From a virus, in IMG/VR virus record IMGVR_UViG_3300002460_000071, positions 1 to 41,356 of that record: DNA of 41,356 nt; one strand, 5' to 3'. Made by a program: the position numbers and the translations under genes. The number at the start of each line of letters is the position of its first letter. Position 1 is the first letter of the stretch. The notes beneath the pieces are model-generated. The model had not been told where the DNA came from. It searched no databases and was given only the letters and a program-made list of their open reading frames with translations. Shown in pieces: positions 898 to 21,752 of this stretch.

Positions 898-899
898 AT
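847..899. repeat. Direct repeat, second copy at about 1400-1452
   Basis: About 53 bases at 847-899 recur with a handful of changes at about 1400-1452, including an identical stretch around ACTCTCCTGCGGTGT. Both copies encode the same N-terminal peptide on the minus strand, and both begin inside the stop codon of an upstream gene ending in Ile-Cys-Pro. The arrangement points to a local duplication of a gene junction. Confidence 0.7.
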
Positions 900-1707: not shown

Positions 1708-1886
1708 ACATTCTCTTTTTTTATGGTTTGAAGTTTACTGTATTCTTTCTTACTCATCTTGCCGTATAAGCATTCAACACTCCACAGAGTCCATGTTTTT
1801 TCAGTTCCATTATCGCCAGCATGACTTATCGAAGTGTGCGTACTATAGCATTTACATTTTTTAGTTGAAGTGAAATTATTATTCAT
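1704..1886 (-). CDS. Small hypothetical protein (60 aa)
   Basis: Starts MNNNFTSTKKCKCYSTHTSI and has three cysteines and two histidines in its first half, with a lysine-rich C-terminus. Its ATG lies four bases downstream of the 3D-domain gene, and its stop overlaps the zinc-ribbon gene start by four bases (ATGA). There is no recognised domain. It is supported by operon packing only. Confidence 0.5.
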   Translation of the reverse strand: MNNNFTSTKKCKCYSTHTSISHAGDNGTEKTWTLWSVECLYGKMSKKEYSKLQTIKKENV

Positions 1887-1889
1887 ATT

Positions 1890-2354
1890 TTATTTGAAGT
1901 AAACAGTTTTATAGGAAAGCCCTTTTGGGTTATTACTAAATATATCTATTGTATTTTGTATTCGTTTGTTTGTTCTATCCTCAACTATATATTTCTTTCC
2001 ATCAATTATTATTTCTGTACCAAATGGGATTGTTCTATCAGATGTGGCAACTGCTCCAATGTAAGGATATTTTCCGCTCGCTGTTTTGTTACCAGTCCAA
2101 CCATATTCAGTTATTCTCATCCATCTCTTATTATCGCAAAAAACGTTTGAGAGATAGCAGGGGTCGGGCGGTTTTATTGCTGTTACTATTTCCACCGCGT
2201 CGCCGAAACCGGCACCTGAACTGTTTTGTCCATTTTCCGTACTGGTGAGATTTTCACCACTTAACGTGATAATGCCTGAATCGGCGATAGCGGCAGATAG
2301 AGCGAGTATAAAGGCAAGAAAGGTTGTGAAAAGAGCGGTGTGAAGGTGGAGCAT
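1890..2354 (-). CDS. Secreted 3D-domain (RlpA-like double-psi beta-barrel) protein
   Basis: Residues 1-24 form a signal peptide (hydrophobic run TTFLAFILALSAAIA). The C-terminal 80 residues match the 3D domain seen in RlpA- and YabE-like proteins that act on peptidoglycan. They include RITEYGWTGNKTASGKYP, GAVATSDRTIPFGTEIIIDG, the conserved EDRT and an IDIF near the end, which supply the Asp residues of the 3D signature. Known members cleave or bind cell-wall glycan. Here it lies in the early leftward operon beside the Erf gene, not with the lysis genes. A role in cell-envelope modification or in lysis are both possible. The domain call is firm; the timing and role are inferred. Confidence 0.82.
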   Translation of the reverse strand: MLHLHTALFTTFLAFILALSAAIADSGIITLSGENLTSTENGQNSSGAGFGDAVEIVTAIKPPDPCYLSNVFCDNKRWMRITEYGWTGNKTASGKYPYIGAVATSDRTIPFGTEIIIDGKKYIVEDRTNKRIQNTIDIFSNNPKGLSYKTVYFK

Positions 2355-2361
2355 AACTTAT

Positions 2362-3033
2362 CTAAAAAGGTATTTCATCCGAATCGTTCACTACTACTAC
2401 TCCTGTTTTCTGTTGTATCGGGGGTTGGCGCAGCCAGCATTTCTTGTCGCAGAAAACTTTGCCGGATTTAGGACTCGTTACATAAGTGCCATCCTCGCAC
2501 TTGGAGCACTTATTACCTTCTTTTTTAGATTTCCCCTCAAAATAGATGCCAGCTCCGTGTATACGTTGCCCCTGTGATGGCACAGGATGAGATATGGGGG
2601 GTTTTTCGTCAAAAATAGAGGTAGTGTCTTTATTTGTACTCCAAACGTGTCCTGAAGCCAAATTACCGTCATCGTCTACCTCCGCTTCTAAGGCGAGGAG
2701 CGATTGGATAGAATAGCGACGGAGATAGGTTATGGCTGATCCGAGTTTTTGAGCGTCAGCCACTTCCGGTATGACAATGTTTGATTCTATGTAAGTAGGG
2801 TCATCTCCTTCTTTTGTTTCAGCATCTCTTATTATTGTCTTGATGATATTTCTTCCATCAAGGATAGAAATTGGTTGGGAGAGAATGAGGCCAAGTTCGG
2901 AGAGAAGTGGTTTTATTTCGGCCAGTAAGCCGTTTATATTGAAATAAGTGCTGTTAAAGTAAGGATTTTTCTCTTCTTTTTTTATTGGTTTTACGCGCTT
3001 TTGGAGTTCGAGGAGCTTTTCCTTGAATGACAT
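2362..3033 (-). CDS. erf: Erf-family single-strand annealing recombinase
   Basis: Residues 1-125 carry the ERF core: KNPYFNSTYFNINGLLAEIK, then LSELGLILSQPI, and AQKLGSAITYLRRYSIQSLL followed by EAEVDDDGN. These proteins anneal complementary single strands and drive phage recombination and circularisation of terminally redundant genomes. After a proline-rich linker there is a Cys4 zinc ribbon (CSKCEDGTYVTSPKSGKVFC) and an acidic DSDEIPF tail, typical of an SSB-like interaction end. It is encoded in the early leftward operon, eight bases upstream of the 3D gene. No SSB or polymerase gene is seen nearby, so host partners are likely. Confidence 0.9.
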   Translation of the reverse strand: MSFKEKLLELQKRVKPIKKEEKNPYFNSTYFNINGLLAEIKPLLSELGLILSQPISILDGRNIIKTIIRDAETKEGDDPTYIESNIVIPEVADAQKLGSAITYLRRYSIQSLLALEAEVDDDGNLASGHVWSTNKDTTSIFDEKPPISHPVPSQGQRIHGAGIYFEGKSKKEGNKCSKCEDGTYVTSPKSGKVFCDKKCWLRQPPIQQKTGVVVVNDSDEIPF

Positions 3034-3036
3034 ATA

Positions 3037-3297
3037 TTATTTTATTAAATGATTAAGCTGTGCTATGGCGAGGTCATTGTCCATATTGAGAAGAGAAAGC
3101 CCCGTCCATTCATCCAGATCGTTTTCAATATAGGACTTCATTGTATCGGTCAATTCATTTTTCAATTTCTCAAGGACAAATCCTGAAACCATAGCTGAAG
3201 CTTTGTTAAACTTCCATGCCTGCGCCTTCGCAACTTCTGTAATATCATGCTCTTTGTTTTTACGCTGACACTCAAGACAAATATGAGGACATTCCAT
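3037..3297 (-). CDS. Hypothetical early protein with N-terminal Cys motif (86 aa)
   Basis: Begins MECPHICLECQRKNKEHDIT, where three cysteines and a histidine could form a small zinc site, and continues as helices (FVLEKLKNELTDTMKSYIEN). It ends three bases before the erf start, suggesting joint translation with the recombinase. I do not recognise the family. Small early proteins before erf in other phages are often recombination or anti-host factors, but nothing here identifies this one. Confidence 0.6.
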   Translation of the reverse strand: MECPHICLECQRKNKEHDITEVAKAQAWKFNKASAMVSGFVLEKLKNELTDTMKSYIENDLDEWTGLSLLNMDNDLAIAQLNHLIK

Positions 3298-3364
3298 AAA
3301 ATTGTTTTATGTGTCGTGGGCTTTTGTGGCGCGCCGCGTGGCCATCGCATGCGCGTTGAGCGTT

Positions 3365-3514
3365 TTATTTAACTGCCTCGCCCGAATGTTCGGCAGACCC
3401 GCAGATTTCTTGGCAAAATGGGCAACCTTCTTCTTCGGCCCATCGTTGTGTGTCTTCAATCAAATGAGACTCGTGATCGCGATGCCATTCATCCATGTAT
3501 GAAGGTTCACTCAT
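3365..3514 (-). CDS. First gene of leftward operon, 49-aa acidic protein
   Basis: Starts at 3514 with MSEPSYMDEWHRDHESHLIE and ends in EHSGEAVK. It is acidic and carries GCPFCQEICG, a possible metal site. It is the first frame downstream of the strong leftward promoter, with a short leader. The frame is continuous and suits the codon use of its neighbours. No family recognised. The 67 bases between it and the next gene hold a GC-rich patch (GGCGCGCC) and no further gene. Confidence 0.55.
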   Translation of the reverse strand: MSEPSYMDEWHRDHESHLIEDTQRWAEEEGCPFCQEICGSAEHSGEAVK

Positions 3515-3544
3515 AGATTATGTTATTTATTTTCTTATACATTT

Positions 3545-3573
3545 ATATTACTATAACCCCATTACCTTGTCAA
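3545..3573 (-). promoter_or_regulatory. Strong sigma70-type early leftward promoter
   Basis: On the minus strand there is a perfect -35 TTGACA (3568-3573), a 17-base spacer and a -10 TAATAT (3545-3550). It lies about 30 bases upstream of the first leftward ATG at 3514 and would drive the early operon. It overlaps an oppositely directed promoter. Confidence 0.75.
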
Positions 3574-3593
3574 GTAGTGTGGTTATGGTAATA
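3546..3593. promoter_or_regulatory. Inverted repeat spanning the divergent promoters (operator-like)
   Basis: TATTACTATAACC (3546-3558) and GGTTATGGTAATA (3581-3593) are inverted copies with one mismatch in 13. They are centred on CTTGTCAAG, where both -35 boxes lie. The dyad makes the two promoters mirror images and is a plausible binding site for a dimeric regulator. No regulator gene is recognised in the window. Confidence 0.6.
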
Positions 3594-3594
3594 T
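3567..3594 (+). promoter_or_regulatory. Rightward promoter overlapping the leftward one
   Basis: On the plus strand there is -35 TTGTCA (3567-3572), a 16-base spacer and -10 TAATAT (3589-3594), placing the start near 3601 upstream of the membrane-protein gene and TerS. The two -35 boxes share five base pairs, so polymerase binding at one should exclude the other. Confidence 0.6.
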
Positions 3595-3639
3595 CATAAG
3601 GTATTTCAAACTTATTAACATGTTGTATACTTAAAATGT

Positions 3640-3897
3640 ATGTTGGATATGGCACTGTGGATTATGACGCTAAGTATGACATTAAGTTTTTTCGCCATTG
3701 TATTACTTGCGTATTGGATATGGCGTTTATATGCGTTTATAAGCGATTGTATAGCGGATAAGGCAGGTGCCCTCAATTATGAAAAGAAAACGCCTAGGAA
3801 CGCATTACATGGCTCACCACGCGAGGCTAGGATACAAGATAACGCGACATCGCACGATGAGATAAGAGTGTTTGAGAGAAAAAATTATAAAGAGTAA
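3640..3897 (+). CDS. Small membrane protein (85 aa)
   Basis: Residues 5-35 form a hydrophobic helix (LWIMTLSMTLSFFAIVLLAY) followed by aromatic and basic residues, then a polar cytoplasmic-type tail. It is the first rightward gene after the divergent promoter and ends three bases before TerS. The start at 3640 has no clear ribosome site. A second overlapping frame starts at 3636 (41 aa) and cannot be excluded. Function unknown. Confidence 0.45.
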   Translation: MLDMALWIMTLSMTLSFFAIVLLAYWIWRLYAFISDCIADKAGALNYEKKTPRNALHGSPREARIQDNATSHDEIRVFERKNYKE

Positions 3898-3900
3898 TGT

Positions 3901-4356
3901 ATGGGATTTGGATCAGAAATAAAATTGAGGAGGAAGGCGAAGATATTTGTAAATACGGTTGTTAAGGAAGGCGGTACGCTTACAGAAGCAGGGAGGAGAA
4001 TATGGCCAAAGCAAAGACCTGAAATAGCTGTAGTGTCAATGAAACAAGACCTCCAAAAAACAAATGTGCAAATTGCGATAAGGGAACAATTAGAGAAAGT
4101 AGGGCTTACTGATGAGGTGTTAGACGTGGAATTGTGTAAGATTGTAAGACAGAATAAAGTGCTCCCAACTAAGCTCAATGCAATCGTAGAAGCTAACAAA
4201 ATGAAGAACAGGTATCCTAAGGATACAAGTGTGCAGAATCTTCATCTCCATGGCATAAATGCTGATAATATCGATGAAAAGATAGAAGAGGTGTTGAATG
4301 AGATCAAGATGCTAGGTCAAAGTGATACCGTGGTAATAGAGGGGGTATCTCAATAA
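3901..4356 (+). CDS. terS: Terminase small subunit (TerS-like)
   Basis: A 151-aa protein with an N-terminal helical DNA-binding region (VVKEGGTLTEAGRRIWPKQR, a helix-turn-helix-like stretch), a central helical part (IREQLEKVGLTDEVLDVEL) and an acidic C-terminus. Small terminase subunits recognise the packaging site and regulate the large subunit; size, domain order and position upstream of TerL fit. The call rests on context and pattern because TerS sequences diverge widely. Unusually, about 520 bases separate it from TerL. Confidence 0.65.
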   Translation: MGFGSEIKLRRKAKIFVNTVVKEGGTLTEAGRRIWPKQRPEIAVVSMKQDLQKTNVQIAIREQLEKVGLTDEVLDVELCKIVRQNKVLPTKLNAIVEANKMKNRYPKDTSVQNLHLHGINADNIDEKIEEVLNEIKMLGQSDTVVIEGVSQ

Positions 4357-4492
4357 TACGTATGGTTATAAGATAAATAGGGTATAGTTATAGAGTATAA
4401 TTAAGATTATACGCAATTACATTTTAGAACAGACTACCCCACCCATGACCCCCAAGGGGGTATCAAAAAAATTCATCAAGTCCCCCCATATT

Positions 4493-4534
4493 TTTTCCAC
4501 AGTTTTTCAAATGACCATCTAAAAGTTATCCACA
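4493..4534 (+). promoter_or_regulatory. Pair of DnaA-box-like sites
   Basis: TTATCCACA at 4526-4534 is a perfect match to the bacterial DnaA box. TTTTCCACA at 4493-4501 has one change. They have the same orientation and are offset by 33 bases, close to three helical turns, and are followed within 40 bases by an AT-rich run that could unwind. Host DnaA-dependent initiation is the natural inference for a phage without its own replicase. Confidence 0.5.
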
Positions 4535-4658
4535 GGTATCAACATGAGTGTTTAGATATAATGGTTTGTATTTTTTTTTAAAAAAAGATATGCTGAATGA
4601 AGTTCTACAAAAAATCATTGAAAACCAAGCTTTTGGGGTACGCTTGTAAAACCACTCC

Positions 4659-4778
4659 ATGAAACGTAAAAGCATATCAGGTACACGTGCGAAAGCTGGA
4701 AAAAAGAGTTTTGCGAGACGCCCCTCTCCCAGCCATCTGACGTGTATCGGATATGCTATACTACTTGATAGTACATGA
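4659..4778 (+). CDS. Possible 39-aa basic peptide within the gap
   Basis: A frame starting MKRKSISGTRAKAGKKSFAR and ending AILLDST crosses the hairpin at 4671-4757. It is very basic in its first half. There is no ribosome binding site, and the hairpin explains the sequence as well as coding does, so I consider it doubtful. Confidence 0.2.
   Translation: MKRKSISGTRAKAGKKSFARRPSPSHLTCIGYAILLDST
4671..4757. other. Long imperfect hairpin upstream of TerL
   Basis: AGCATATCAGGTACACGT (4671-4688) pairs with ACGTGTATCGGATATGCT (4740-4757) at 16 of 18 positions. A nested GCTGG (4695-4699) pairs with CCAGC (4729-4733). No T-run follows, so it is not a simple terminator. It could be a structured RNA, a DNA packaging signal or a protein-binding dyad. 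Confidence 0.55.
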
Positions 4779-4880
4779 GGATGTTTAAACTGTCAAGTAA
4801 ATCTCAATGATTCGAAGGGCCCAAAAAGAAAATCATCGCCCCGTAAGGGGTATCAGAGGTAAAGGGCGTCTCTATGCCTT

Positions 4881-6434
4881 ATGGAGAATACAAAGGAGGA
4901 GCTTTACATAAAACTAAATAATCTTCTCTCGTTTAAGAGAAGGATTGAAGGAGAGAAATCAGTCTCTTCTTTTTTTTCTGCGTATCTCAAAACATTGCGT
5001 ACCACAAAGACTCCGCCGTTTCATTATGAGATGATGAATCTTTTGTATGATGCAGTTCCGCTTAAAGATAAAACTCAAAACATTGAACGGCTTCTTTTTA
5101 TCGCGCCGCGCGGTTTTGCTAAGTCTACGATATGTTCAATCGTTTATCCTCTCTATCTTGCGCTCTATGGCATTAAGAAAGATATTTTTCTTGTTTCCGC
5201 GACTATATCATTGGCAAAAGAACTTCTTCGTAAAGTGCGAAATGAACTTGAAAATAATACAACGATAGTGCAGGACTTCGGAGAAATGAAATCGGATAAA
5301 TGGACGGAAGATATTCTTGCTTTGAAAAACGGATGTGTGATTCGCGCGAAGGGCAGAGGATTTCAGATTCGTGGTTTTCGTCCAGACATTATCATCTGTG
5401 ACGACTTGGAAGATGAAGAAGTCATCTATAGCAAAGAACAAAGAGATAAATTGGAGCATTGGTTTTTCAGAACGCTACTCCCCGCTCTCAAACCTGGACA
5501 GAATGTCGTATATGTCGGCACAAAGCTCCATCAATTTTCTCTCATAGCAAAATTGCAAAACAAAGAAGAATTTATCGTTCGACAATACAAGGCGATCGTA
5601 TCAATCGATAATGAAGAGAAAAGTATCTGGGAAGAATTGTGGAGTTTGGAACGCCTTACGAAATTACGGAGAGAACTTGGAGCGTATGCATTTGAGGCGG
5701 AATATCAAAATAATCCGATATCTCTTGAAGAGCAGCCGGTAAAGCCGGATATGCTGGACAATGTCATTGTGCGCGGAGAAAAAGTGTATTCGGCGCTTGC
5801 GATCGATCCGGCAATATCAGAGAAGGAATCTTCCGATTATCGCGGGTTCTCTCTCTTTGAAAGAACCGATGAAGGATTCAGAGAAGTTTATTCTGAAAAA
5901 GGAAGATGGGGGATTGATGAACAGATCGAGCGTGTCATCAATCTTTACGAGCATTACAGGCCGGATAGAATTATCATAGAAGAAGTCGCTTTTCAAAAAG
6001 TTTTCAAACACATACTTTTGGAAAAAAGCAGGAAGCGCAAACTTTTTCTTCCCGTCACAGCAGCTGAACTCGGCGTGGGGTACAACAAAAGGCCAAAGGA
6101 TAAATATACGCGCCTCCTTTCCGTCATTCATCTTTTTGAACAGCGTCTCGTGCAGATAAAGAATCCCGATCTTCGAGAAGAACTTCTTACATTTCCCCAT
6201 GGAGAACATGACGACCTTGTTGACGCGACTGTCTTCGCTCTCTATTGGCTCATGCAAAACAGGGATGGCAATGTCATGAAGAAACGACAAGACGAATCAG
6301 TCCCCCTTGAAGGAGTCAAGGATTCATTCTATGTTGAAGAGGTGAGGCCTGGCGTGTTTATGGCCAAAATCGGTGAACCGGCAAAAGCCCCCCTACTTTC
6401 AGAAACGCATATTTTCAATTATGATAAAGAATGA
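4881..6434 (+). CDS. terL: Terminase large subunit (ATPase-nuclease)
   Basis: This 517-aa motor pumps DNA into the prohead and cuts the concatemer. The ATPase domain has an atypical Walker A, IAPRGFAKST (about 74-83), and a Walker B, IIICDDLEDEE (about 170-180). The RNase H-like nuclease domain shows its three acidic clusters: ALAIDPAISEKESSDYRGF (about 303-320), RIIIEEVAFQK (about 365) and GEHDDLVDATVFAL near residue 440. Full length for the family. The start at 4881 lacks a good ribosome site but no better start exists. The stop overlaps the start of the next gene by 14 bases. Confidence 0.96.
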   Translation: MENTKEELYIKLNNLLSFKRRIEGEKSVSSFFSAYLKTLRTTKTPPFHYEMMNLLYDAVPLKDKTQNIERLLFIAPRGFAKSTICSIVYPLYLALYGIKKDIFLVSATISLAKELLRKVRNELENNTTIVQDFGEMKSDKWTEDILALKNGCVIRAKGRGFQIRGFRPDIIICDDLEDEEVIYSKEQRDKLEHWFFRTLLPALKPGQNVVYVGTKLHQFSLIAKLQNKEEFIVRQYKAIVSIDNEEKSIWEELWSLERLTKLRRELGAYAFEAEYQNNPISLEEQPVKPDMLDNVIVRGEKVYSALAIDPAISEKESSDYRGFSLFERTDEGFREVYSEKGRWGIDEQIERVINLYEHYRPDRIIIEEVAFQKVFKHILLEKSRKRKLFLPVTAAELGVGYNKRPKDKYTRLLSVIHLFEQRLVQIKNPDLREELLTFPHGEHDDLVDATVFALYWLMQNRDGNVMKKRQDESVPLEGVKDSFYVEEVRPGVFMAKIGEPAKAPLLSETHIFNYDKE

Positions 6435-6852
6435 AGATAGAGAAATCGTGAGTTTTTGGTGTGATAAATGCCATGAGGATTTTGATACGCCATCGCGCGT
6501 GAAAAAGACCTATTACGAAGATGAGTATTTTATTTCGCATTGTCCAAAAAATCATGAAGTGGTACGCTATATTACAGGAAAAGAGGATGATCCGTATTTT
6601 TTCAAATCAGAAAAAATGAAACGCCAGCGGTATGAATTTCGTAAAGATATTATACAACCTGGACAAGACGGATTTGAGACATTATATAAAAAGGAGTATG
6701 ATAAAATCGAGAAGGCAAGAGAAGCGTATGAGAAAAAGATGATGCAAAGAAAAAGAGAGGCGGAAGCATACTATAAAAAACTCAAAGAACAACAGGTTGA
6801 TTCTAAAATCATAAATCGGGCAATGGAAGCAGAAAGAGGCCACTATGCCTGA
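6421..6852 (+). CDS. Zinc-ribbon and coiled-coil protein between TerL and portal (143 aa)
   Basis: I start it at the ATG at 6421 (MIKNEDREIVSFWCDKCHED), which overlaps TerL by 14 bases. An upstream in-frame ATG at 6373 would lie deep inside TerL. The N-terminal 45 residues hold CDKC and HCPKNH, a probable zinc ribbon. Residues 80-135 are a charged coiled coil (KKEYDKIEKAREAYEKKMMQ). It overlaps the portal start by eight bases. It is probably virion-assembly or packaging related by position; family not recognised. Confidence 0.7.
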   Translation: MIKNEDREIVSFWCDKCHEDFDTPSRVKKTYYEDEYFISHCPKNHEVVRYITGKEDDPYFFKSEKMKRQRYEFRKDIIQPGQDGFETLYKKEYDKIEKAREAYEKKMMQRKREAEAYYKKLKEQQVDSKIINRAMEAERGHYA

Positions 6853-8503
6853 AGTAGCTGCGGAAAATACGTCTGTAGAGGATACCGAAAAAAGTGAGCA
6901 AGAAGAGTTCAACGACACTCTTGACGATGCAACCATTCTTCACATTATCGAAGGATGGGAACAAGAATCGCAAGAATTTTACGGAAATCTTGAACGTATC
7001 TGGGAAGAAAATCTCCTTTACTACAAGGGTATTCAAACCGATGTCCAAAAGATACGGGGGAAGCATTCCAAGTCGGTCGAGAATCGAATTTTCATGGCCG
7101 TTGAAACAGAGATACCGCTTGTTACTGGCCGCCTTCCTGACGCTGTTGTAAAACCAGCGCAGGAAGACGAACAAAGCATCATAGACGCGCTTGACCTCGA
7201 AGACATTCTCGAATATCAATTTGAACGCGTTCATATTCAAGAACTTGCCGAACGATGGATACGTGACATGATTATTAAACGCTACAGCGTTTTTAAGGTT
7301 GTATGGGATGAAAAAATTGATGATGTAGGCGTTCAAGTTATCGATCCGCGCAGGATACGCATTCCGAAGTATGGGAAAACCGTTGATGAGCTTGCCTACG
7401 TCATCGAGGAACTTGAACTTTCTTACGGACAAATTGAAGATTTTTTTGGAAAAGAAAAAGCGGAGAAAATAAAATCTCAAAAAGTTGATTCAAACACAAA
7501 AGTAAGAAAAAAAACATATCTTGTGAAAGAAGTGTGGACGAATGATTTTGTTGTCTGGAAAGCTGGAAGTGAGATTTTGAAAAAGGAATCAAATCCCTAT
7601 TTCAAAAAAAACGGTTTCTTTGATGCTCCGAAAAAGCCCTATGTCATAAAATCTCTTTTTGAAACGGAAGAATGCATTATCGGCGACACCGACTACATCC
7701 AGCAAGTAAAATCAATCCAGGATAATATCAATATACGGAAACGGCAAATAGAAGATATCGTCGGGAAAGTTTCAAATCCCTATCTCCTCATAGATTCCGA
7801 TGTGATGAGTGAAGAAAAAGCAGCTAATATCACAAATGAACCTGGCGCTATTCTTTACGGAAGAGAAGCGGCGTCAGGGACAAAGATACGCTTTGAATCA
7901 CCTGGACAAGTTTCAAACGCACTCTTTGAAGATTTACAACTTTCACGAAATGAGTTTGACAATATTTGGGGTATCCACAGTACAACACGAGGAGAAAGGC
8001 AGGGGAAGGAAACACTCGGAGGCCGCCAAATACTGCGAGAAGCGGATTTAGGCCGCGTTGATTTAGTCGGAAGAACACTTGAGCGCGCGCTTGACGAAAT
8101 AGCGGAGTATTGGACACAACTCATTTCTCTTTTTTATACAGAAGAACGCTCATTCGCCATCCTTGGCGGGGATGGTGTGAGGTTTGTCCGTAATTTTACC
8201 GGTTCGCGTGTCGGAAAAATGATGAAACCAATGGTAAAGAGCGGTTCGACATTGAAAGAGGATGATTTCAGTATCAAGCAAACAGGGATTATGCTCTGGC
8301 AATCTGGAGCAATAGGCCTTAAAACATTGTATAAAATGTTAAAATTTTCCAATATGCAAGAAGCAATAGACGATTTTGTGCAAACAAAGAGTGGTGCTAT
8401 ACTCCAGGGAGGGCAACAACCGGCAGTCCCTTTTACTTCTGATTCTATCCCGCAGGAACAAGCGCAATCCGGCCCTCAAGAACCTCCTGGAACTATTTTA
8501 TAA
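6845..8503 (+). CDS. Portal protein
   Basis: At 552 aa, this is the dodecameric ring at the capsid vertex through which DNA enters and leaves. It has an acidic N-terminus, then LYYKGIQTDVQKIRGKHSKS, VFKVVWDEKIDDVGVQVIDP, the long wing and stem region with DNINIRKRQIEDIVGKVSNP, and a helical crown (ETLGGRQILREADLGRVDLV). Order TerL - small gene - portal - scaffold - capsid is canonical. An AGAGG site precedes the ATG. The C-terminus is Gln/Pro-rich. Confidence 0.88.
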   Translation: MPEVAAENTSVEDTEKSEQEEFNDTLDDATILHIIEGWEQESQEFYGNLERIWEENLLYYKGIQTDVQKIRGKHSKSVENRIFMAVETEIPLVTGRLPDAVVKPAQEDEQSIIDALDLEDILEYQFERVHIQELAERWIRDMIIKRYSVFKVVWDEKIDDVGVQVIDPRRIRIPKYGKTVDELAYVIEELELSYGQIEDFFGKEKAEKIKSQKVDSNTKVRKKTYLVKEVWTNDFVVWKAGSEILKKESNPYFKKNGFFDAPKKPYVIKSLFETEECIIGDTDYIQQVKSIQDNINIRKRQIEDIVGKVSNPYLLIDSDVMSEEKAANITNEPGAILYGREAASGTKIRFESPGQVSNALFEDLQLSRNEFDNIWGIHSTTRGERQGKETLGGRQILREADLGRVDLVGRTLERALDEIAEYWTQLISLFYTEERSFAILGGDGVRFVRNFTGSRVGKMMKPMVKSGSTLKEDDFSIKQTGIMLWQSGAIGLKTLYKMLKFSNMQEAIDDFVQTKSGAILQGGQQPAVPFTSDSIPQEQAQSGPQEPPGTIL

Positions 8504-8507
8504 ACGT

Positions 8508-8678
8508 ATGCCGTCCCATTATCTTACACGTGAGAAGGCGAAAAAGATTTTACGCCACGGGGAAGTACGCGGTTCACATTCACTCACGGAAAAACAAAAA
8601 GGGTTTTTCGGTTTGATTGCATCGGGTAAGCGTCCCTCAATGAAAAAAATGGCATCCCTCTTGCGGAAAAAACAGTAA
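8508..8678 (+). CDS. Small basic protein after portal (56 aa)
   Basis: Begins MPSHYLTREKAKKILRHGEV and continues with SLTEKQKGFFGLIASGKRPS. The pattern Lys-x-x-Leu-His-Gly... followed by LTEKQ-GFFG-IA-G resembles a short conserved phage protein found next to portal or head genes in many tailed phages, whose function is unknown to me. Starts four bases after the portal stop. Confidence 0.65.
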   Translation: MPSHYLTREKAKKILRHGEVRGSHSLTEKQKGFFGLIASGKRPSMKKMASLLRKKQ

Positions 8679-8771
8679 AATGACATACTCAACGTGAGGA
8701 CAGAACCTCGTAAAAAAATGCATCACGGGCTTCACTCGCCCGCAACCTAATTTTTAGGAAAAGAGCGCAAT

Positions 8772-9359
8772 ATGGACGAAGAATTTAACAATGGCGATTC
8801 ATCATCGTCAGAAATAGAAGATACTCAATCTGGAGAAAAAATGATTCCTGAATCGAGATTCAAGGAAGTGTACGGGCAAATGAAGAATCTTGAACGTGAA
8901 ATAACCACGTTAAAAAGTAAGGAATCAGGGAGTGGCCTCACAGAGGAACAACAAAAGGAACTCCAGGCAAAAGAGTATCTCAAGAGTCTTCTCAAAGAGA
9001 CGCTTTCAGAAGAGAAGAAAATTGAGGAGGATAAAAAGACGGAAGAACTTAAAAAATTCAATGATGAAGTCGAAAATATCCTCTCAATCCATACGGATGT
9101 GAAAAAAGACGATTTCCTTTCTTTTCTTGAAAAAGAAGGAGACGACTACTCATCCATACAGGCCGCTATGAAAGCGTATAAACGTCTTTCCAATGTCGAG
9201 AAGGAAGCTATCGGGAAAGCGAAGCAAGAACTTCAAAAAAAACCGAAACTTCCAGCCCATGAAGGCGGAGGAGGAAGGCAAGATTATTCCGAATCAGACA
9301 AAGGAAAAAGTTTATGGCAGATAGCCCAAGAAGCGGCAACGGAGCTATCTAAAAAATAA
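8772..9359 (+). CDS. Capsid scaffolding protein
   Basis: A 195-aa, highly charged, helical protein with coiled-coil segments (QMKNLEREITTLKSKE, then LKETLSEEKKIEEDKKTEEL) and a basic C-terminal end (AKQELQKKPKLP, then GGGGR). Scaffolds of this type guide capsid assembly and leave before DNA fills the shell. It sits immediately upstream of the capsid gene, nine bases away. AGGAAAAG upstream serves as a ribosome site. The 93 bases before it hold two small hairpins (GAGG-CCTC and CGGGC-GCCCG) and no gene. Confidence 0.82.
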   Translation: MDEEFNNGDSSSSEIEDTQSGEKMIPESRFKEVYGQMKNLEREITTLKSKESGSGLTEEQQKELQAKEYLKSLLKETLSEEKKIEEDKKTEELKKFNDEVENILSIHTDVKKDDFLSFLEKEGDDYSSIQAAMKAYKRLSNVEKEAIGKAKQELQKKPKLPAHEGGGGRQDYSESDKGKSLWQIAQEAATELSKK

Positions 9360-9368
9360 CATACTATT

Positions 9369-9815
9369 ATGCCAGCACTCGGAACGATCGTAACGAGTGT
9401 GACCCAGGATCGGTTTATTCCGGCTGCGATTGATAGCGTATTGAATGGCAATGTCCTTTCAATGCGCCTTTTACGCAATTCGCGCACATGGAATGGCGGC
9501 GTTTCTATCGAACAGCCCGTCCATTTGTCGGATATTACCGCAGTTGGGTCATACTCTGGATTCGATACACTTTCGACGACACAGGAGAATACGCGCCAGC
9601 GCGCATCTTTCACGCCGTCGCAGGTATATGTCGCAATCCCTATTTCGGGCATTCAGAAAGCAGTTAATCAGGGTGATGCCGCAGTTCTTAATCTTGTCGC
9701 AACAGAAATAGAATGGCGCACAAAACGCCTCAAGGATGAGATTGGTACACAGGTATACTCTGATGGTACAGGAAATAGTTCGAAGGACATTCTCGGTATT
9801 CATGCCGCCGTGGAT
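9369..9815 (+). CDS. Major capsid protein, exon 1 (codons 1-149)
   Basis: Starts MPALGTIVTSVTQDRFIPAA and contains the N-terminal arm, VSIEQPVHLSDITAVGSYSG, and the spine-helix region RTKRLKDEIGTQVYSDGTG. The true exon ends with codon 149 (GAT, Asp) at 9815, although the frame reads on to a stop at 9846-9848. Joined to exon 2 the junction reads HAAVD-DSTDVTTYGGLSRA, the continuous sequence expected for this capsid family. The spliced protein is 333 aa, normal for an HK97-fold shell protein. Unspliced RNA would give a 159-aa truncated product. Confidence 0.9.
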
Positions 9816-9870
9816 AAAACATTGTCCACACTTGCTTATAGCTTGTAACCCTAGAAGTTCTTTGATATAA

Positions 9871-9899
9871 TTAGTGCATGGATAAACACTATGCACTAA
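9871..9899 (+). promoter_or_regulatory. Hairpin enclosing the HNH start codon
   Basis: TTAGTGCAT (9871-9879) pairs perfectly with ATGCACTAA (9891-9899). The ATG of the endonuclease (9878-9880) lies at the base of the loop. Such sequestering hairpins keep intron endonuclease expression low until late transcription in other phage introns, and it may double as a P2 element. Confidence 0.6.
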
Positions 9900-10672
9900 A
9901 ACAGTCACCAGAATATAAACTATGGCGATCAACCATTTATCGAAGAGATAGATGGAAGTGTAAAGTATGTGGGAAGAATGGGAGAATAGAAGCGCACCAT
10001 ATATTCCCACTAAGAAGCCATTACGAAAAAAGAGTTGATGTGAATAATGGGATCACTCTTTGCTTCGGATGTCATAGGCTGATATTCGGAAAAGAACTTT
10101 TAGTAGCAAGATGGCTACTAGGCTTGATAAATATAAACGGCGTAAATTCGGTGGACATCCAAAAGGACAATACCGAGCCAAGCCGAGATGGAAACTTCTC
10201 GGAAGGTGTAACGACTAGGAGTCGAGGCTACCGTTTAGAGCAGTTCATTAACAAGGAAGTACAATGTTCAGAGTGTGATGCAAAATTGATTAGACATTAT
10301 TATCGAATAAAAAGGTCTAAAAGATTTTGGTGTAGTAAGGCTTGTAATAGTTCGTGGGTTAAGAAAAACCAATCTGGTGAGAATAACCCAAACTATAAGA
10401 AGCCAAAAATCTATAAATGTTTATATTGTGGAAAGAAAACTCAAACTCCAACGTATAAACATAGAGAGAAAAAATACTGCACCAACACATGCCAGTTGAG
10501 ATACGAGTATAAAAATGGATTAAAGAAAAAATTAAAACCATATCTCAATGGAAAATGGACAAAAAAATTCTTATCCTGTGTCATTTGTGGGGAAAAAGAT
10601 AAACCACATTATGGCAGGGGTAGGTGTATGCCTTGTTATAATGAAGAATATAACTCTAAAAAACGCCAGTAA
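9878..10672 (+). CDS. Intron-encoded HNH homing endonuclease
   Basis: Residues about 15-75 form an HNH module: WRSTIYRRDRWKCKVCGK, then GRIEAHHIFPLRSHYEKR and NGITLCFGCHRLIFGKE. It would cut intronless capsid alleles and drive intron spread. Residues about 96-125 (KDNTEPSRDGNFSEGVTTRS) are simply the translation of the conserved ribozyme core, so RNA structure constrains the protein here. The C-terminal half has three Cys-rich fingers (CSEC...C, CLYCGKK...C, CVICGEKD...C), probably for DNA recognition. The whole frame is removed by splicing. Confidence 0.92.
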   Translation: MDKHYALKQSPEYKLWRSTIYRRDRWKCKVCGKNGRIEAHHIFPLRSHYEKRVDVNNGITLCFGCHRLIFGKELLVARWLLGLININGVNSVDIQKDNTEPSRDGNFSEGVTTRSRGYRLEQFINKEVQCSECDAKLIRHYYRIKRSKRFWCSKACNSSWVKKNQSGENNPNYKKPKIYKCLYCGKKTQTPTYKHREKKYCTNTCQLRYEYKNGLKKKLKPYLNGKWTKKFLSCVICGEKDKPHYGRGRCMPCYNEEYNSKKRQ

Positions 10673-10769
10673 TACTCCCACGAAAACGCTGCCCGAAAGG
10701 GATGATATAGTCTGACCTCTATGGAAACATAGAGAAGTAAAGGATAAAGAGCCTTTACGATAACACTTG

Positions 10770-11324
10770 GATTCAACTGATGTCACAACATACGGCGGAC
10801 TATCCCGTGCGACCTATACGAATTGGCGCGGAACGCGAACGGCGCAGTCAGGTTCATTGTCATTAGCAAACCTTGCAGCGGATTTTGACGCGGCACAGCG
10901 TGGAGATGATGCTCCGACATTGAAGGTTTCAACGCCGGCGGTATTCACTATCTTTGAAGCACTTCTTACGCCAACCGTTTCTCACCAATTCAGTATGAAT
11001 GATTTCCGCATGACGGAAACAGGCATGGTGCGCGTTGGCGGGACATTGGCTGCGAATCAGGGATTCCGCGCTCTTACATTCCGTGGCATCCCCTTTGTTG
11101 CTGATGAGAAATGTACCGCAGAAAATATCTTCACGCTCAATGAAAAACATTTGTTTTTCTATACGATCCCAAATCCGGAACGTGAAGTGAAGAATGGTTT
11201 TGCGTGGACTGGATGGAAAGAACCGGCTAATCAGGATGTCGTTGTGGGCCATCTTCTGTGGTACGGACAGCTTATCACTGACGCACCTCGCACTCATGCG
11301 CGAAGAACGGGTGTCACGAGTTGA
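10770..11324 (+). CDS. Major capsid protein, exon 2 (184 codons plus stop)
   Basis: Continues the capsid in frame with exon 1 from GAT at 10770. It contains TTYGGLSRATYTNWRGTRTA, the P-domain segment STPAVFTIFEALLTPTVSHQ, RALTFRGIPFVADEKC and a C-terminal A-domain part with WYGQLITDAPRTHARRTG. A TTG at 10767 could be misread as a start for a separate 185-aa gene, but the in-frame stop at 10761-10763 belongs to the intron. Confidence 0.9.
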   Translation, partial: DSTDVTTYGGLSRATYTNWRGTRTAQSGSLSLANLAADFDAAQRGDDAPTLKVSTPAVFTIFEALLTPTVSHQFSMNDFRMTETGMVRVGGTLAANQGFRALTFRGIPFVADEKCTAENIFTLNEKHLFFYTIPNPEREVKNGFAWTGWKEPANQDVVVGHLLWYGQLITDAPRTHARRTGVTS

Positions 11325-13509: not shown

Positions 13510-13788
13510 ATGGCTGAATTTGAATTTGGGACATCTGGTGTAAGCGGTTTCACATGGACAACAACCTCAACATCAACGTCCACATCCACAACTACAACTA
13601 CATCGTCGACGTCGAGTTCAACTTCCACGTCGTCAACATCTACGAGTACGACATCCACGTCGACAAGTACATCCTCTACATCTACCTCTACATCTTCGAC
13701 ATCCACGTCGACAAGTACAACGACGTCAACGACGACTACCACGTCATCTACAACAACATCAAGTTCATCAACAACAACGTCGGCGTAG
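13510..13788 (+). CDS. Short mucin-like Ser/Thr-tract protein (92 aa)
   Basis: After MAEFEFGTSGVSGFTW the protein is almost only Thr and Ser (about 75 residues) and ends in Ala. It is the last gene before the terminator at 13804 and the sugar cassette. The same kind of tract, much longer, occurs in the protein at 23716. Serine and threonine are the acceptors of O-linked glycans, so it may be a displayed, glycosylated virion peptide. The codons are varied, which argues for selection on the protein. The minus strand also reads open (Val/Asp repeats), but that is a by-product of the Ser/Thr codons. Confidence 0.7.
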   Translation: MAEFEFGTSGVSGFTWTTTSTSTSTSTTTTTSSTSSSTSTSSTSTSTTSTSTSTSSTSTSTSSTSTSTSTTTSTTTTTSSTTTSSSSTTTSA

Positions 13789-13893: not shown

Positions 13894-14691
13894 ATGAATA
13901 AAAATTGCATTGCGATTGTAGGCATGGGTTATGTCGGTAAAGGGATGTTAAAGATTTTTCCTGATGCCATTCAGTATGATGAACCGTTAAAAATTGGGAC
14001 GCGAAATGATGTCAATCAATGCGAACTTTCAATACTATGTGTTCCAACTCCATCAGCCGATGATAAAAGTTGCGATACCTCAATCGTAGAAGATGTTGTT
14101 TCATGGATTGAAACGCCACTCATTTTGATAAAATCAGCCCTTGAACCAGGTACAGTTGACCTCCTCAAAGAGAAATACGATAAGAGGATTGTCGTTTCCC
14201 CAGAATATCTCGGCGAAGGGAAGTATTATACACCACCGAAATACCCAGACCCACAGAATCCACTATCACATGGATTTGTTATCCTTGGAGGAACTGATGA
14301 GGATTGCTCTGAAGTTGCCGATATACTTGTCCCTGTTCTCGGCCCGACAACACGGTTCCGTTTTGTGACACCACTGGAAGCCGAGGTTATCAAATATGCG
14401 GAAAATACATGGGGCGCAATGAAGGTGACGTTTGCGAACGAACTTAGGGAGATATGCGAAATACTGGGAGCAAATTGGCACAAGGTTCGTGAGGGGTGGA
14501 TTGATGATCCTCGTGTTGAGCCAATGCATACCGCTGTTTTCAAAAATAAAAGAGGATATGGCGGTAAATGTTTTCCAAAAGATACATGGGCTTTTTTCAA
14601 AGTATGCCAAAAAAACGGTTTTGAACCAAAACTTATTAAGGCAATGTTAGATAAAAATTCGGGCTATGAAAGTTCTTATCACGGGAAATAG
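13894..14691 (+). CDS. Short UDP-sugar (UDP-glucose/GDP-mannose type) 6-dehydrogenase
   Basis: Members oxidise C6 of an NDP-hexose to a carboxylate (for example UDP-glucuronate). The Rossmann motif is IAIVGMGYVGKGML at residues 6-19. The central domain shows ESTLEPG-like IKSALEPGTVDLL, PEYLGEGKYY, and EVIKYAENTWGAMKVTFANE. The catalytic-Cys motif GYGGKCFPKD is at about 227-236. At 265 aa it lacks the C-terminal sugar-nucleotide domain of standard enzymes (about 430 aa), as some compact viral forms do. The acid it makes would be a substrate for the AsnB-like amidotransferase two genes downstream. Confidence 0.85.
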   Translation: MNKNCIAIVGMGYVGKGMLKIFPDAIQYDEPLKIGTRNDVNQCELSILCVPTPSADDKSCDTSIVEDVVSWIETPLILIKSALEPGTVDLLKEKYDKRIVVSPEYLGEGKYYTPPKYPDPQNPLSHGFVILGGTDEDCSEVADILVPVLGPTTRFRFVTPLEAEVIKYAENTWGAMKVTFANELREICEILGANWHKVREGWIDDPRVEPMHTAVFKNKRGYGGKCFPKDTWAFFKVCQKNGFEPKLIKAMLDKNSGYESSYHGK

Positions 14692-15517
14692 GGGGTTTAT
14701 AGGTTCTCATCTTCAGAAGAAAATTGATGCCGATAGTGTCGGATATGATATTGTAGACGGGAAAGATATATTGGAAATGAAACCTAAAGACTTTGCGGGA
14801 ATTGATTATGTTTTTCACCTCGCCGCAGAAGTAAATGTTCAAAAATCCGTTGAAAATCCCATAGAAACATTTAGAACGAATGTATCTGGGACGATGAATG
14901 TCTTAGAGTGCGCAATACACTCCGAATCTGTTAAGCGCGTTATTTTCTCATCATCGGCGGCAATCTATGGCATAAACGCAAAAAATGACAGGACAGGAAA
15001 GGCGTATGAAGAATTTGACGAGAAGAAACCGCTTTCTCCGTATGGCTTTTCAAAACTTATAGGAGAAGAACTTTGTAAAATGTATTCCACAACCTATGGA
15101 CTCGATACCGTATGTCTTCGGTACTTCAATGTTTATGGAGATGGGATGAAATGTGATTCACCGTATAGCGCGGCTGTCGCTATTTTTTTGGATAAGAAAA
15201 AAAATGGTATGCCCCTTCCTGTATTCGGCGGAAAACAGACGAGAGATTTTGTTTCTGTCGATGATGTGGTTAATGCGAATATTTCCGCCATGTCATATCC
15301 ATTTCCTTTGAATGGAGAACCGATAAACATAGGTTCGAGCATAAGTACGGTGATAGATGATGTTGCGCGCAAGATAAGTGATGACATATTATATTATCAA
15401 CAGAGAGATAACGAGCCGATGCATTCAAGGGCAAATATAAAAAAAGCGCATAGTATTCTCAAATGGCTGCCAAAAACTGATTTTATGAAATGGCTCGAAT
15501 CGGTATGTGCAGTATAG
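14666..15517 (+). CDS. NAD-dependent sugar epimerase/dehydratase (GalE-like SDR)
   Basis: An extended short-chain dehydrogenase acting on nucleotide sugars. NAD motif GNRGFIGSHL at residues 7-16, then DYVFHLAAEVNVQKSVENP, the FSSSAAIYG serine, catalytic SPYGFSKLIGEE (Tyr-x3-Lys), RYFNVYGDG and GGKQTRDFVSVDDVV. Closest in pattern to UDP-glucose/UDP-glucuronate 4-epimerases; substrate not fixed. Overlaps the dehydrogenase by 26 bases and the AsnB-like gene by 13, in a compact operon. Confidence 0.88.
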   Translation: MKVLITGNRGFIGSHLQKKIDADSVGYDIVDGKDILEMKPKDFAGIDYVFHLAAEVNVQKSVENPIETFRTNVSGTMNVLECAIHSESVKRVIFSSSAAIYGINAKNDRTGKAYEEFDEKKPLSPYGFSKLIGEELCKMYSTTYGLDTVCLRYFNVYGDGMKCDSPYSAAVAIFLDKKKNGMPLPVFGGKQTRDFVSVDDVVNANISAMSYPFPLNGEPINIGSSISTVIDDVARKISDDILYYQQRDNEPMHSRANIKKAHSILKWLPKTDFMKWLESVCAV

Positions 15518-16842
15518 CTGGCGCGTATTCAATAGAGAAAGTCGATTCGATGCTTCAGGCGATGATTCATCGCTCGCCTGACGGAACGAGAACTGCTGAA
15601 AAAAACGGATTCGCAATAGGGATGGGGCGTCTCTCAATCCTTGATTTAGAATCAGACAATCTTTGCCTTTACGAAGAAGATGGCTCGTATCTTTCTTTCA
15701 ATGGTGAAATATATAACTATGAAGAACTTAAAAATGAACTCAGAGAGAAACATGAGTTCAAAACAAAGTCTGATACTGAAGTTCTATTCAAGGCATGGAA
15801 GGAATGGAGCGTTGGATGCCTCGACCGTTTCAACGGGATGTTTGCCTTTGCCATTTATGATGGTGAGAAGATATTTTTCGCGCGCGATAGTGCGGGAGAG
15901 AAGCCACTTTATTATAAAGAAAATCCATTTTGTTTCGCATCAGAGGCAAAAGCTCTTTTTTGGGATTGTAAGGAATTAAAACCTGCTCATTACGGCATTT
16001 ATGATATAAAGACAGGTTTTCTTGATATAAAGCGCTACTGGGAGCCAATAAAACGCGATATAAGCATTTTTGACGCCCAAGAAGAGCTAGAGTATCTCCT
16101 TGATGATTCCGTGCGTCTAAGGACGAAATCTGACGTTCCATACGCCCTCTATTATTCAGGTGGCATTGATTCCTCACTTATCAAGACATTTCATGATTTT
16201 GAATATACCTATTCCTATGAAGACAGATATGATTACAAAGAAGAATTTCTCGAAAAAGCAGAAGACATCATCTACCACCTCGATTATCCTGCCTCAAGTT
16301 TTTCGCCATTTGGTTTGTGGAAACTTGCCAAAGAAGCATCAAAAAAAGTGAAAGTCGTTCTGTCGGGAGAGGGAGCTGACGAACTCTTTGGCGGGTATGT
16401 AAGGTATGTCGCTCCTCACTTCAATCATTTGGCGCAAAAGGAGTTTCCGTCATACAAAAAAATGTTTGAGCCAGCCATGTCAGTAAGTGAATATGGATGG
16501 AATGAGTTTAACGGAAACATGCAAGAACTTCTTCGCATGGGAGACAGGATGAGTAGTGCGTTTGGTATTGAGAATCGTTGTCCGTTTCTTGATAAACGAA
16601 TCATAGAATTTGCCTACTCATTGCCTGATGAGCTTAAAATCAATGGACTTGAAACAAAGGTTATTCTGCGCAGGATTTTAGAAAAGAGAAATCCCGATTA
16701 TAAACATATCGAGAAGAAAGGGCTCTATTGCCGTGTCAATGAGTTTCTTGGCGAAAGCGATAAATACTCAAAGGATAAATATCTTGATTTTCAATATAAG
16801 ATATGGAGAAAATTTCAATTATCTCAACCCATTGGTCAATGA
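15505..16842 (+). CDS. AsnB-like glutamine-dependent amidotransferase
   Basis: I choose the start at 15505 (MCSIAGAYS) because it puts the catalytic Cys at position 2, as the class II glutaminase requires. An in-frame ATG at 15490 would bury it. The glutaminase domain has HRSPDGTRTAE, FNGEIYNYEEL and RDSAGEKPLYY. The synthetase domain has ALYYSGGIDSSLI (PP-loop), VVLSGEGADELFGGY and NRCPFLDKR. At 445 aa it is shorter than cellular AsnB. In bacterial O-antigen clusters such proteins amidate sugar uronic acids, which fits its place beside a UDP-sugar dehydrogenase. Asparagine synthesis is the alternative. Confidence 0.88.
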   Translation: MCSIAGAYSIEKVDSMLQAMIHRSPDGTRTAEKNGFAIGMGRLSILDLESDNLCLYEEDGSYLSFNGEIYNYEELKNELREKHEFKTKSDTEVLFKAWKEWSVGCLDRFNGMFAFAIYDGEKIFFARDSAGEKPLYYKENPFCFASEAKALFWDCKELKPAHYGIYDIKTGFLDIKRYWEPIKRDISIFDAQEELEYLLDDSVRLRTKSDVPYALYYSGGIDSSLIKTFHDFEYTYSYEDRYDYKEEFLEKAEDIIYHLDYPASSFSPFGLWKLAKEASKKVKVVLSGEGADELFGGYVRYVAPHFNHLAQKEFPSYKKMFEPAMSVSEYGWNEFNGNMQELLRMGDRMSSAFGIENRCPFLDKRIIEFAYSLPDELKINGLETKVILRRILEKRNPDYKHIEKKGLYCRVNEFLGESDKYSKDKYLDFQYKIWRKFQLSQPIGQ

Positions 16843-17504
16843 ACGAACAACGATCAGAAGTAATGCGACGTTGTTATCAATCATTGATTGAAACAACAAA
16901 GCATCTTCAGGTGGAAATTATCGTGTGTGACAATGGGGGTTCATTAGAAGATTCACAGTATCTTCTTGGATTATGTAATGAAAAAAAGATTCATCACTAT
17001 ATTCGCAATTCTGAAAATTTATATTTTGGCTATGGAAGAAATATCGGCGTTCATCTTTCTGTCGGGGAGTATCTTGTTTTCACCGATAACGATATTGAGT
17101 ATAAGCAAGGATGGCTGGAAGAATGTATCTCTGTTCTTGAGCAGAATCCTGATAGGAAGATTCTTATGACTCCATTGCGCACAGATAGAGAACATAGAAA
17201 TCATAGACATTGGATGGGAGAGATTGAAGTAAACGGTAAAAAATATCTTCTCAATATGAGAGCGGGAAGCAATTCATGGGTTATGAGGAGAGAAGATTTT
17301 TTCAAAATAGGGTTGTTTCGTAATCATAGCATTGCAGGAAGTTTGTGGAACGATGTTTTTGTCCGTTGCGGATATTTGATGGCGACCATGGAACATGAGC
17401 CGAAAGCTCATGATATTGGGTTCAAAAAAGGGTACAATCATAAAGAACGCGTTTCAATAAAAAAGATTTTTTCGGACGGTTCGGAACTTTGCATCAATAA
17501 TTGA
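16803..17504 (+). CDS. Family 2 glycosyltransferase
   Basis: GT-A fold: MEKISIISTHWSMNEQRSEV at the start, EIIVCDNGGSLEDSQYLL, then GRNIGVHLSVGEYLVFTDND (the DND metal-binding site near residue 97) and WLEECISVLEQNP. C-terminal acceptor part with RREDFFKIGLF and WNDVFVRCGYLM. Single domain, 233 aa, no membrane helix. Overlaps the upstream gene by 40 bases. Sugar donor and acceptor are not predictable. Confidence 0.87.
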   Translation: MEKISIISTHWSMNEQRSEVMRRCYQSLIETTKHLQVEIIVCDNGGSLEDSQYLLGLCNEKKIHHYIRNSENLYFGYGRNIGVHLSVGEYLVFTDNDIEYKQGWLEECISVLEQNPDRKILMTPLRTDREHRNHRHWMGEIEVNGKKYLLNMRAGSNSWVMRREDFFKIGLFRNHSIAGSLWNDVFVRCGYLMATMEHEPKAHDIGFKKGYNHKERVSIKKIFSDGSELCINN

Positions 17505-17506
17505 TT

Positions 17507-18100
17507 ATGAATCTCGCTATAAACATGATGACACTTAATGGAAAGACGGCGTTTATAAAAGAGACGCTTGACTCCGTATATGACTATTCAAATGAAATAA
17601 TCGTTTATGATACGGGATCGACTGACGGAACGGTTGAATTTGTAAAGGATCGATTCCCAAAAGCCATCATCAAGCAATTCGATATTCAACATCTTGGTGA
17701 AATATGGACTGGTTCAGAGAAAGACAGGGAATTGACGCGACTTCTTAATCAAATGAAGAAAGAAACAAAATCAGAGTGGATTCTCAAAATAGATGATGAC
17801 GAACTATTCCCAGATGTACTAATGGAAGAAATATGCGATGTAATAAAAAACGGGGGCGACAATATCGTTTCAATCCCATTCATTCATATAAGCAAGAAAA
17901 CATCCCAATCAGGACTTATTATCAAACGTCTTTTTAGAAATACGGATGCTGTTTCATGGAGCGGTATTTATGGTACTGAAACACTTGCTCTTTGCGGAAG
18001 CCGTATTAGGTCTCATAAATGCTATACATTGAGCAATCACTTTTATCATCTTGGAGAATTGCGAAAAGATAATAACAGAAAACATGACTATCAATTCTGA
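17507..18100 (+). CDS. Family 2 glycosyltransferase (short)
   Basis: Starts at the ATG at 17507 (MNLAINMMTLNGKTAFIKET). Shows EIIVYDTGSTDGTVEFVKDR (nucleotide-binding DTGSTDGT) and SEWILKIDDDELFPDVLME (the DDDE metal site). SIPFIHISKKTSQSG and RLFRNTDAVSWSG resemble SPBc2-type or LPS core GT2 enzymes. 197 aa. It lies two bases after the preceding gene and overlaps the next by 17. Confidence 0.87.
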   Translation: MNLAINMMTLNGKTAFIKETLDSVYDYSNEIIVYDTGSTDGTVEFVKDRFPKAIIKQFDIQHLGEIWTGSEKDRELTRLLNQMKKETKSEWILKIDDDELFPDVLMEEICDVIKNGGDNIVSIPFIHISKKTSQSGLIIKRLFRNTDAVSWSGIYGTETLALCGSRIRSHKCYTLSNHFYHLGELRKDNNRKHDYQF

Positions 18101-18770
18101 CATTCATATTGTCGTTCAATCAAAATATCCGCATATTCTTGAAAACTTTAAGAAGAGTTTTTTTGAAACAACAAAGAATTTCTCAAAACTTACTCTTCAT
18201 ATTATCGATGGAAGTTCGTACGGAGCTATTGAGATAAACAAGATATTGCGCCCTCTTTTATCAAAGAGGGAGGGATATGCGTTTGGCGTGTTTAATGACG
18301 ATCTCGTATTTTCAGAAGGTTGGCTCGAAGATGTTTGCGAAGCATTGAAAAGTAATCATTGTGTTTCTGGTGGATATGTTGAAACGGATGATATGGATGT
18401 CTTCAAAAAAGCGGTTGATATGACAAAAGACGATGAAGGATTCGTCCCGTTGCTTTATGGGCCGAATGCCGTATTTAGAATGGATATATTTCAATCGATA
18501 GGCATTTTTGATGAGAGATTCGAATGGAGTGTTGATGATTTGGATTTTGCATGGCGTATTAAACTCAACGGTCTCTCGTCAATTACGCTGAAACGGATAC
18601 GAACGTGCCATCTTTTCGGAAAGACACGAGAACATAATATGAAACAATGGAATTATATTTCTACTCTTAACAAGGAAAAGTTTTATGACAAGCACGGCTA
18701 TCGCTCCTACCGGAACATCAGGGGTGAATACAAAAAATGGCATAGATATTTCCAATGTTACAAGACTTGA
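18084..18770 (+). CDS. Family 2-like glycosyltransferase
   Basis: From the ATG at 18084: MTINSDIHIVVQSKYPHIL. GT-A features include YAFGVFNDDLVFSEGWLEDV (NDD metal site), LYGPNAVFRMDIFQSIGIFD and ERFEWSVDDLDFAWRIKLNG, the acceptor/catalytic region typical of GT2 rhamnosyl- or galactofuranosyl-type enzymes. An upstream in-frame start at 18051 would overlap the previous gene by 50 bases and has no ribosome site. Confidence 0.85.
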   Translation: MTINSDIHIVVQSKYPHILENFKKSFFETTKNFSKLTLHIIDGSSYGAIEINKILRPLLSKREGYAFGVFNDDLVFSEGWLEDVCEALKSNHCVSGGYVETDDMDVFKKAVDMTKDDEGFVPLLYGPNAVFRMDIFQSIGIFDERFEWSVDDLDFAWRIKLNGLSSITLKRIRTCHLFGKTREHNMKQWNYISTLNKEKFYDKHGYRSYRNIRGEYKKWHRYFQCYKT

Positions 18771-21746: not shown

Positions 21747-21752
21747 AATTAT

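Follow-up and report, generated by a model that had tools for sequence, protein, structure and literature searches.

Group I intron of a phage major capsid gene and its HNH endonuclease frame, possibly read through the ribozyme core

Group I introns of phages are said to prefer genes that serve nucleotide synthesis and DNA metabolism, and this bias has been called mysterious (PMC12350094); the Jug phages carry many of them in essential genes, with metatranscriptome support for 37 of the 76 tested (PMC12363816). Splicing of an intron out of a capsid gene has been followed in mycobacteriophage LittleE by RT-PCR and N-terminal sequencing (PMC3706429). Intron-borne endonuclease frames can also run into the ribozyme itself: the largest overlap between ORF and catalytic core listed in a review of this 'core creep' is 81 nt, and in phage T4 a hairpin masks the ribosome-binding site of I-TevI (PMC3073962).

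The stretch of DNA analysed here (the window) is a metagenomic IMG/VR virus record of 41,356 bases, in which a major capsid gene spanning 9369-11324 is interrupted by an intron. We are confident that this is a group I intron carrying an HNH homing-type ORF within the capsid gene. The features of the locus are collected in Table 1.

Table 1. Coordinates of the split capsid gene, the ribozyme elements and the intron-encoded features
Feature	Positions	Strand	Basis
Capsid exon 1, codons 1-149	9369..9815	+	spliced product matches NF033394 capsid_maj_Podo and phrog_9953
P1: exon GUGGAU + intron AA / UU + IGS GUCCAC; U9815.G9824 at 5' splice site	9810..9829	+	sequence, fold
Group I intron, 954 nt, terminal G	9816..10769	+	intronless relatives, core pairing, partial RF00028 matches
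Candidate intronic promoter TTGTAA-17-TATAAT, TG before -10	9843..9871	+	10/12 matches; not rarer than in shuffles
11-bp hairpin enclosing ORF start codon	9871..9899	+	fold, z -5.2
HNH endonuclease ORF, 264 aa	9878..10672	+	open frame, Pfam, phrog_1271, AlphaFold
P3 5' strand CGGCG, partner 10687-10691	10138..10142	+	5/5 pairs covary in class
P4 10148-10152/10172-10176; P5 10158-10160/10165-10167	10148..10176	+	core alignment
P6 10177-10179/10205-10207; P6a 10183-10188/10197-10202	10177..10207	+	core alignment
P7 5' strand GACUA, partner UAGUC 10708-10712	10213..10217	+	motif, alignment; invariant in set
P7.1 5' strand GGAGU, partner ACUCC 10674-10678	10218..10222	+	4/5 pairs covary
P7.1 3' strand ACUCC	10674..10678	+	core alignment
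P3 3' strand CGCUG	10687..10691	+	core alignment
P8 CCC-GAAA-GGG	10692..10701	+	core alignment
P7 3' strand UAGUC	10708..10712	+	core alignment
P9, GAAA loop	10717..10734	+	core alignment, fold
P9.1 GUAAAGG-N8-CCUUUAC	10737..10758	+	fold
Capsid exon 2, codons 150-333 and stop	10770..11324	+	junction continuous in 14 intronless relatives

The split capsid gene and its ribozyme

Without splicing, the exon 1 frame meets a stop at 9848, and a separate open frame runs over exon 2 to 11324. Joining 9369-9815 to 10770-11324, which removes 954 nt (3 x 318), gives an intact protein of 333 residues, reading ...HAAVDDSTDVTTYGG... across the junction. This product scores 198 bits against the NCBIfam model NF033394 capsid_maj_Podo (cut-off 80; residues 8-330) and 5e-56 against phrog_9953 'major head protein', and the family match bears out an earlier sequence-only reading in which the capsid gene was held to be split by an intron.

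The same reading had claimed exact splice sites, with the joined exons restoring the capsid. A scan of viral contigs returned 18 loci with relatives of the capsid, and in the 14 intronless loci the alignment runs without a gap over AAVD|DSTDV, with both D149 and D150 present in 14/14. The gap-free junction shows that both splice sites are exact; none of these homologous capsids has extra residues there, and the relatives fix the position of the terminal G, G10769. The pairing of GTGGAT (9810-9815) with GTCCAC (9824-9829), with its U.G pair at the splice site, is likewise seen in the sequence, and in the fold P1 reaches 8 bp. One further contig (L016) carries the same intron, with a single mismatch in 6,552 bp (99.985% identity). 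Including it, five intron-bearing contigs were found besides the window, and together with the 14 intronless relatives they show that this capsid gene has intron-plus and intron-minus alleles. Annotated phages share only 24-34% capsid identity with the window, one of them being a TM7 phage, and searches of genome contigs with the capsid profile and with the terminase, made to find a host, gave no relative.

The ribozyme cores of 13 introns of the class, namely the window and 12 relatives, were aligned with their ORFs excised and scored on a hand-made structure (42 pairs). Across P3-P9, 96.5% of cells are paired, against 35-42% when the alignment is slid; since the structure was drawn on the same 13 sequences, this percentage taken by itself leans towards the structure. 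The compensatory changes are stronger evidence: double changes occupy 109 cells of the core, where shuffling gives 32 on average, with compensation in all five pairs of P3 and four of the five of P7.1, while P7 does not vary. A local fold offered UAAACGG/CCGUUUA as an alternative P3, which was set aside in favour of CGGCG/CGCUG, the pairing that sits canonically beside P8 and covaries throughout. Identity as a group I intron is thus upheld by the intronless relatives, the covariation and the protein-family matches. The core elements P3-P7 are visible as had been described, and GAAA loops cap P8 and P9; P9.1 has no GAAA loop, its loop being of a GGAUAAAGAGCC-like type that recurs in four other introns (L067, L077, L114 and L104).

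An endonuclease frame across the catalytic core

The 264-residue ORF, of which the sequence-only reading made no mention, is likely to be the homing enzyme of the intron. Its HNH domain (residues 28-68), with zinc-binding cysteines, matches Pfam HNH_2 (1e-6) and HNH (7e-6), both above their cut-offs; the ORF matches phrog_1271 at 6e-13, and its best structural match (PDB fold) is the HNH nuclease of phage GVE2 (5h0m). A core-coded linker follows at residues 87-115, and then three zinc-finger-like units encoded in L7.1; the P7.1 loop contains the C-terminal half of the ORF. The frame stays open across 10138-10222, that is, 85 nt of catalytic core from P3 to P7.1, where it encodes the peptide NGVNSVDIQKDNTEPSRDGNFSEGVTTRSRG. 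It closes with a TAA (10670-10672) lying within the conserved ribozyme UAAU that adjoins P7.1. In a weak AlphaFold model (8 sequences, overall mean pLDDT 62), the HNH domain reaches about 90 and residues 73-125 fall below 50, matching a predicted flexible linker coded by the core. Among the viral contigs, the window's ORF matched only the near-identical contig, with no close non-identical homologue.

About ten of 81 introns of the class among the matches listed have a long frame that crosses the core or lies next to it. Seven of them encode the same core peptide and then, in frame, a CxxC..CxxxC finger; their complete members have two fingers and the HNH domain before the core and one finger after it. 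In these seven relatives the post-core part has a pN/pS of 0.52 and a rough dN/dS of 0.17, synonymous sites being close to saturated; in 6/7, stops interrupt the other post-core frames. The pre-core part gives a pN/pS of 0.38 (four sequences). The core-coded part gives 1.2 (seven relatives), the kind of value to be expected of a segment constrained by its RNA and not by its protein. The substitution ratios thus indicate that the post-core zinc finger is under purifying selection in the seven relatives, and this, with a layout common to related introns, argues that translation through the core is probably real. For the window's own phage we also regard it as probable. A tblastn search with the ORF of one relative (L047) against annotated phages gave no match.

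The principal alternative is that the 264-residue frame is accidental, with function confined to the HNH part, or to some shorter product, and the zinc fingers not co-translated with it. The frame across the core does close quickly in about 70 of the 81 introns (among the matches listed), and Edgell et al. caution that annotation error may account for long overlaps between ORF and core (PMC3073962). We nevertheless consider an accidental frame unlikely: the window's frame passes from HNH to zinc fingers without any stop, seven other introns keep their CxxC..CxxxC in the same post-core frame under apparent purifying selection, and several introns of the class, the window's among them, place their stop codon in the same element of the ribozyme.

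An RF00028 search at the gathering threshold finds nothing in the window, and the covariance search put forward in the sequence-only reading returned partial matches: 10572-10734 at 28.4 bits (E 5e-5), the sole match at E<0.5 across the whole window, and 10142-10222 at 16 bits, both below the gathering score of 50. Such a score might be read as the mark of a decaying element that no longer splices and leaves the capsid gene broken. It is most likely explained by the ORF, which splits the core; relatives without an ORF do exceed the threshold, at 65.6 bits in L004 (a different intron in the same capsid family) and 55.2 bits in L077 (the window's class). Decay is further countered by the intact P1, IGS, P3, P4, P6, P7, P7.1, P8, P9 and terminal G, by a capsid frame kept in both exons with no other damage, and by the practically identical second contig, and we think it very improbable. 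The core motif GAGCCAAGC-N4..34-AAGGTGTAACGACTA occurs once in the window and in none of 100 shuffles, and at least 119 viral-contig stretches carry it. An intron of this sort breaks up the capsid gene as well as its own Rfam match, so that standard annotation misses the one and the other.

An assembly chimera, an intein or a freestanding HNH insertion that is not spliced, which a metagenomic record might bring to mind, can hardly be credited, given that the exon 1 frame stops 33 nt into the insert (against an intein), that the group I signature falls exactly on the capsid boundaries and that a second assembled contig agrees; a group II intron was also considered and rejected.

For an intact, functional element of this kind we infer splicing, homing, translation through the core in the window's phage and a promoter/hairpin switch. 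The ribozyme, from P1 to P9.1, would excise itself and join codon 149 to codon 150, restoring the capsid. The HNH protein would cut intronless alleles near the conserved codon pair, and repair would copy the intron in. Its ORF would start upstream of P3, be read through P3-P4-P5-P6-P7-P7.1 and end in the zinc fingers of the P7.1 loop, the core-coded residues serving as a flexible linker. Since the core could not fold while a ribosome occupied it, expression of the ORF is probably separate from splicing. In read-through transcripts the start codon would be trapped in the hairpin, and shorter transcripts from the nearby candidate promoter would begin at about 9878, lack most of the 5' arm of the hairpin and leave the start codon free. 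The candidate promoter ends 6 nt upstream of the start codon, and two promoter-like sites were found where 4.7 were expected from shuffled sequence. A comparable start-codon hairpin was found in only one (L014) of five other introns tested; in L039, L047 and L056 the hairpin is not strong. Control of the ORF by such a switch is therefore a tentative suggestion. The combined picture, of a capsid-specialised lineage whose HNH enzyme is read through its own ribozyme core (about 85 nt serving as both active-site RNA and protein linker), with splicing and endonuclease synthesis mutually exclusive for each transcript and divided by hairpin and promoter, is one that we hold at close to, but short of, even chances.

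Other endonuclease-like frames lie elsewhere in the window. A freestanding HNH_3 ORF (21753-22157) stands directly upstream of a GDP-mannose dehydratase gene, and the RF00028 search of the whole window gave no group I match near it. A small ORF on the minus strand (35847-36212), between glycosyltransferase and methyltransferase genes, has an HNH-like Cys-rich pattern and no Pfam match. The surrounding regions (13894-23462 and 33624-37477) contain a long series of sugar-nucleotide and glycosyltransferase genes, which is large given the size of the phage, encoding a UDP-glucose dehydrogenase, an epimerase, an asparagine synthase-like protein, a GDP-mannose dehydratase and an FkbM methyltransferase. 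Long Ser/Thr repeat proteins (STSTSTSS), possibly fibres, are encoded at 23716-26148 and 13510-13788, and a similar protein follows the head genes in L039 (5915-6373).

Insertion sites and host genes of the class

Other group I introns occur in the capsid family of the window. One lies after G64 (L014; 768 nt, with HNH), one after S151 (L004/L005; 308 nt, no ORF), one after the codon equivalent to D150 (L039; 830 nt, zinc fingers then HNH) and one before HLLF near codon 309 (L039; 728 nt, HNH_3). Altogether there are five insertion sites, all between codons and three of them within 6 nt, and so this family is invaded at five or more sites. By inspection the core of the window's intron is unlike those of L004 and L039; with differing cores at nearly the same spot, this region of the capsid junction seems to be a point of convergence for two or more intron lineages. 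The two L039 introns, both of group I, interrupt a single capsid gene (L039:1718-4290), and each has an HNH-type ORF. Ser151 is encoded by AGT next to the intron in L004 (2680-3010) and by TCT in the intronless L002, a difference that may reflect co-conversion of the flanking exon during homing.

Introns of the window's class are also found in more distant phrog_9953 capsids, at SYSG| (equivalent to the L014 site) in L078 and L114 and elsewhere in L068 and L086. L114 carries two such introns in one phrog_9953 capsid gene (reverse strand, cores 3177 and 4049), the first with a GIY-YIG-like ORF. LAGLIDADG-like ORFs adjoin the same core class in L105 (core 5216, reverse strand) and L046 (core 2514, reverse strand); one begins at GACUAUG right after P7 and the other enters the core from upstream.

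To identify host genes, the flanks of 81 introns among the matches listed were compared with classified exon fragments, which placed 52. The intron lies in or beside a major capsid gene in 38 of these 52, a count that includes near-duplicate loci, relies on reference fragments drawn from the same set and takes in some loci that show adjacency to a capsid gene only. By family the 38 comprise 19 phrog_1328, 14 phrog_9953, 2 phrog_267, 2 phrog_334 and 1 phrog_1357; the remaining placed introns are in tape measure, DNA polymerase or portal genes. The expectation that capsid genes are less usual intron sites does not hold for this class, in which, among the matches listed, they are the commonest identified host.

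Comparison with known systems

Capsid introns and core-overlapping ORFs are already known; what is less ordinary is the passage of an endonuclease gene through the core and the preference of a whole class for capsid genes. A literature search of incomplete coverage gave no account of an endonuclease frame that spans the core and encodes domains to either side of it, and none of an intron class biased towards capsid genes. Like the window, LittleE has a group I-like intron in the major capsid gene with an endonuclease ORF present, but there the ORF is LAGLIDADG-like and on the opposite strand, the host phage is unrelated and the insertion site is another (PMC3706429). In the lactococcal phage Tuc2009, too, a capsid gene contains a group I intron (cited in PMC3706429), a likeness drawn from its description.

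The td intron of T4 and its I-TevI resemble the window in that the ORF overlaps the ribozyme core and its start region lies in an RNA hairpin; I-TevI, however, merely ends within the core (20 nt), whereas the window's frame crosses 85 nt, with domains on both sides (PMC3073962). The HNH endonucleases of the phrog_1271/GVE2 type share the catalytic domain and differ in domain order and in the core-coded linker. The core-threaded HNH introns of phrog_1328 capsid genes (L047, L050, L056, L059, L067, L102 and L106) have the same core class and core peptide, a post-core finger and a major capsid host; where complete, they carry two fingers before the HNH domain and one after the core, and the corresponding numbers in the window are zero and three. 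Because the post-core domain appears to be under selection in these relatives, the core-threaded ORF bears on the doubt that long 'core creep' overlaps are annotation errors. Finally, against the bias towards DNA metabolism described for phage group I introns, this class as a whole, among the matches listed, leans towards capsid genes, with at least five conserved sites struck in a single capsid family.
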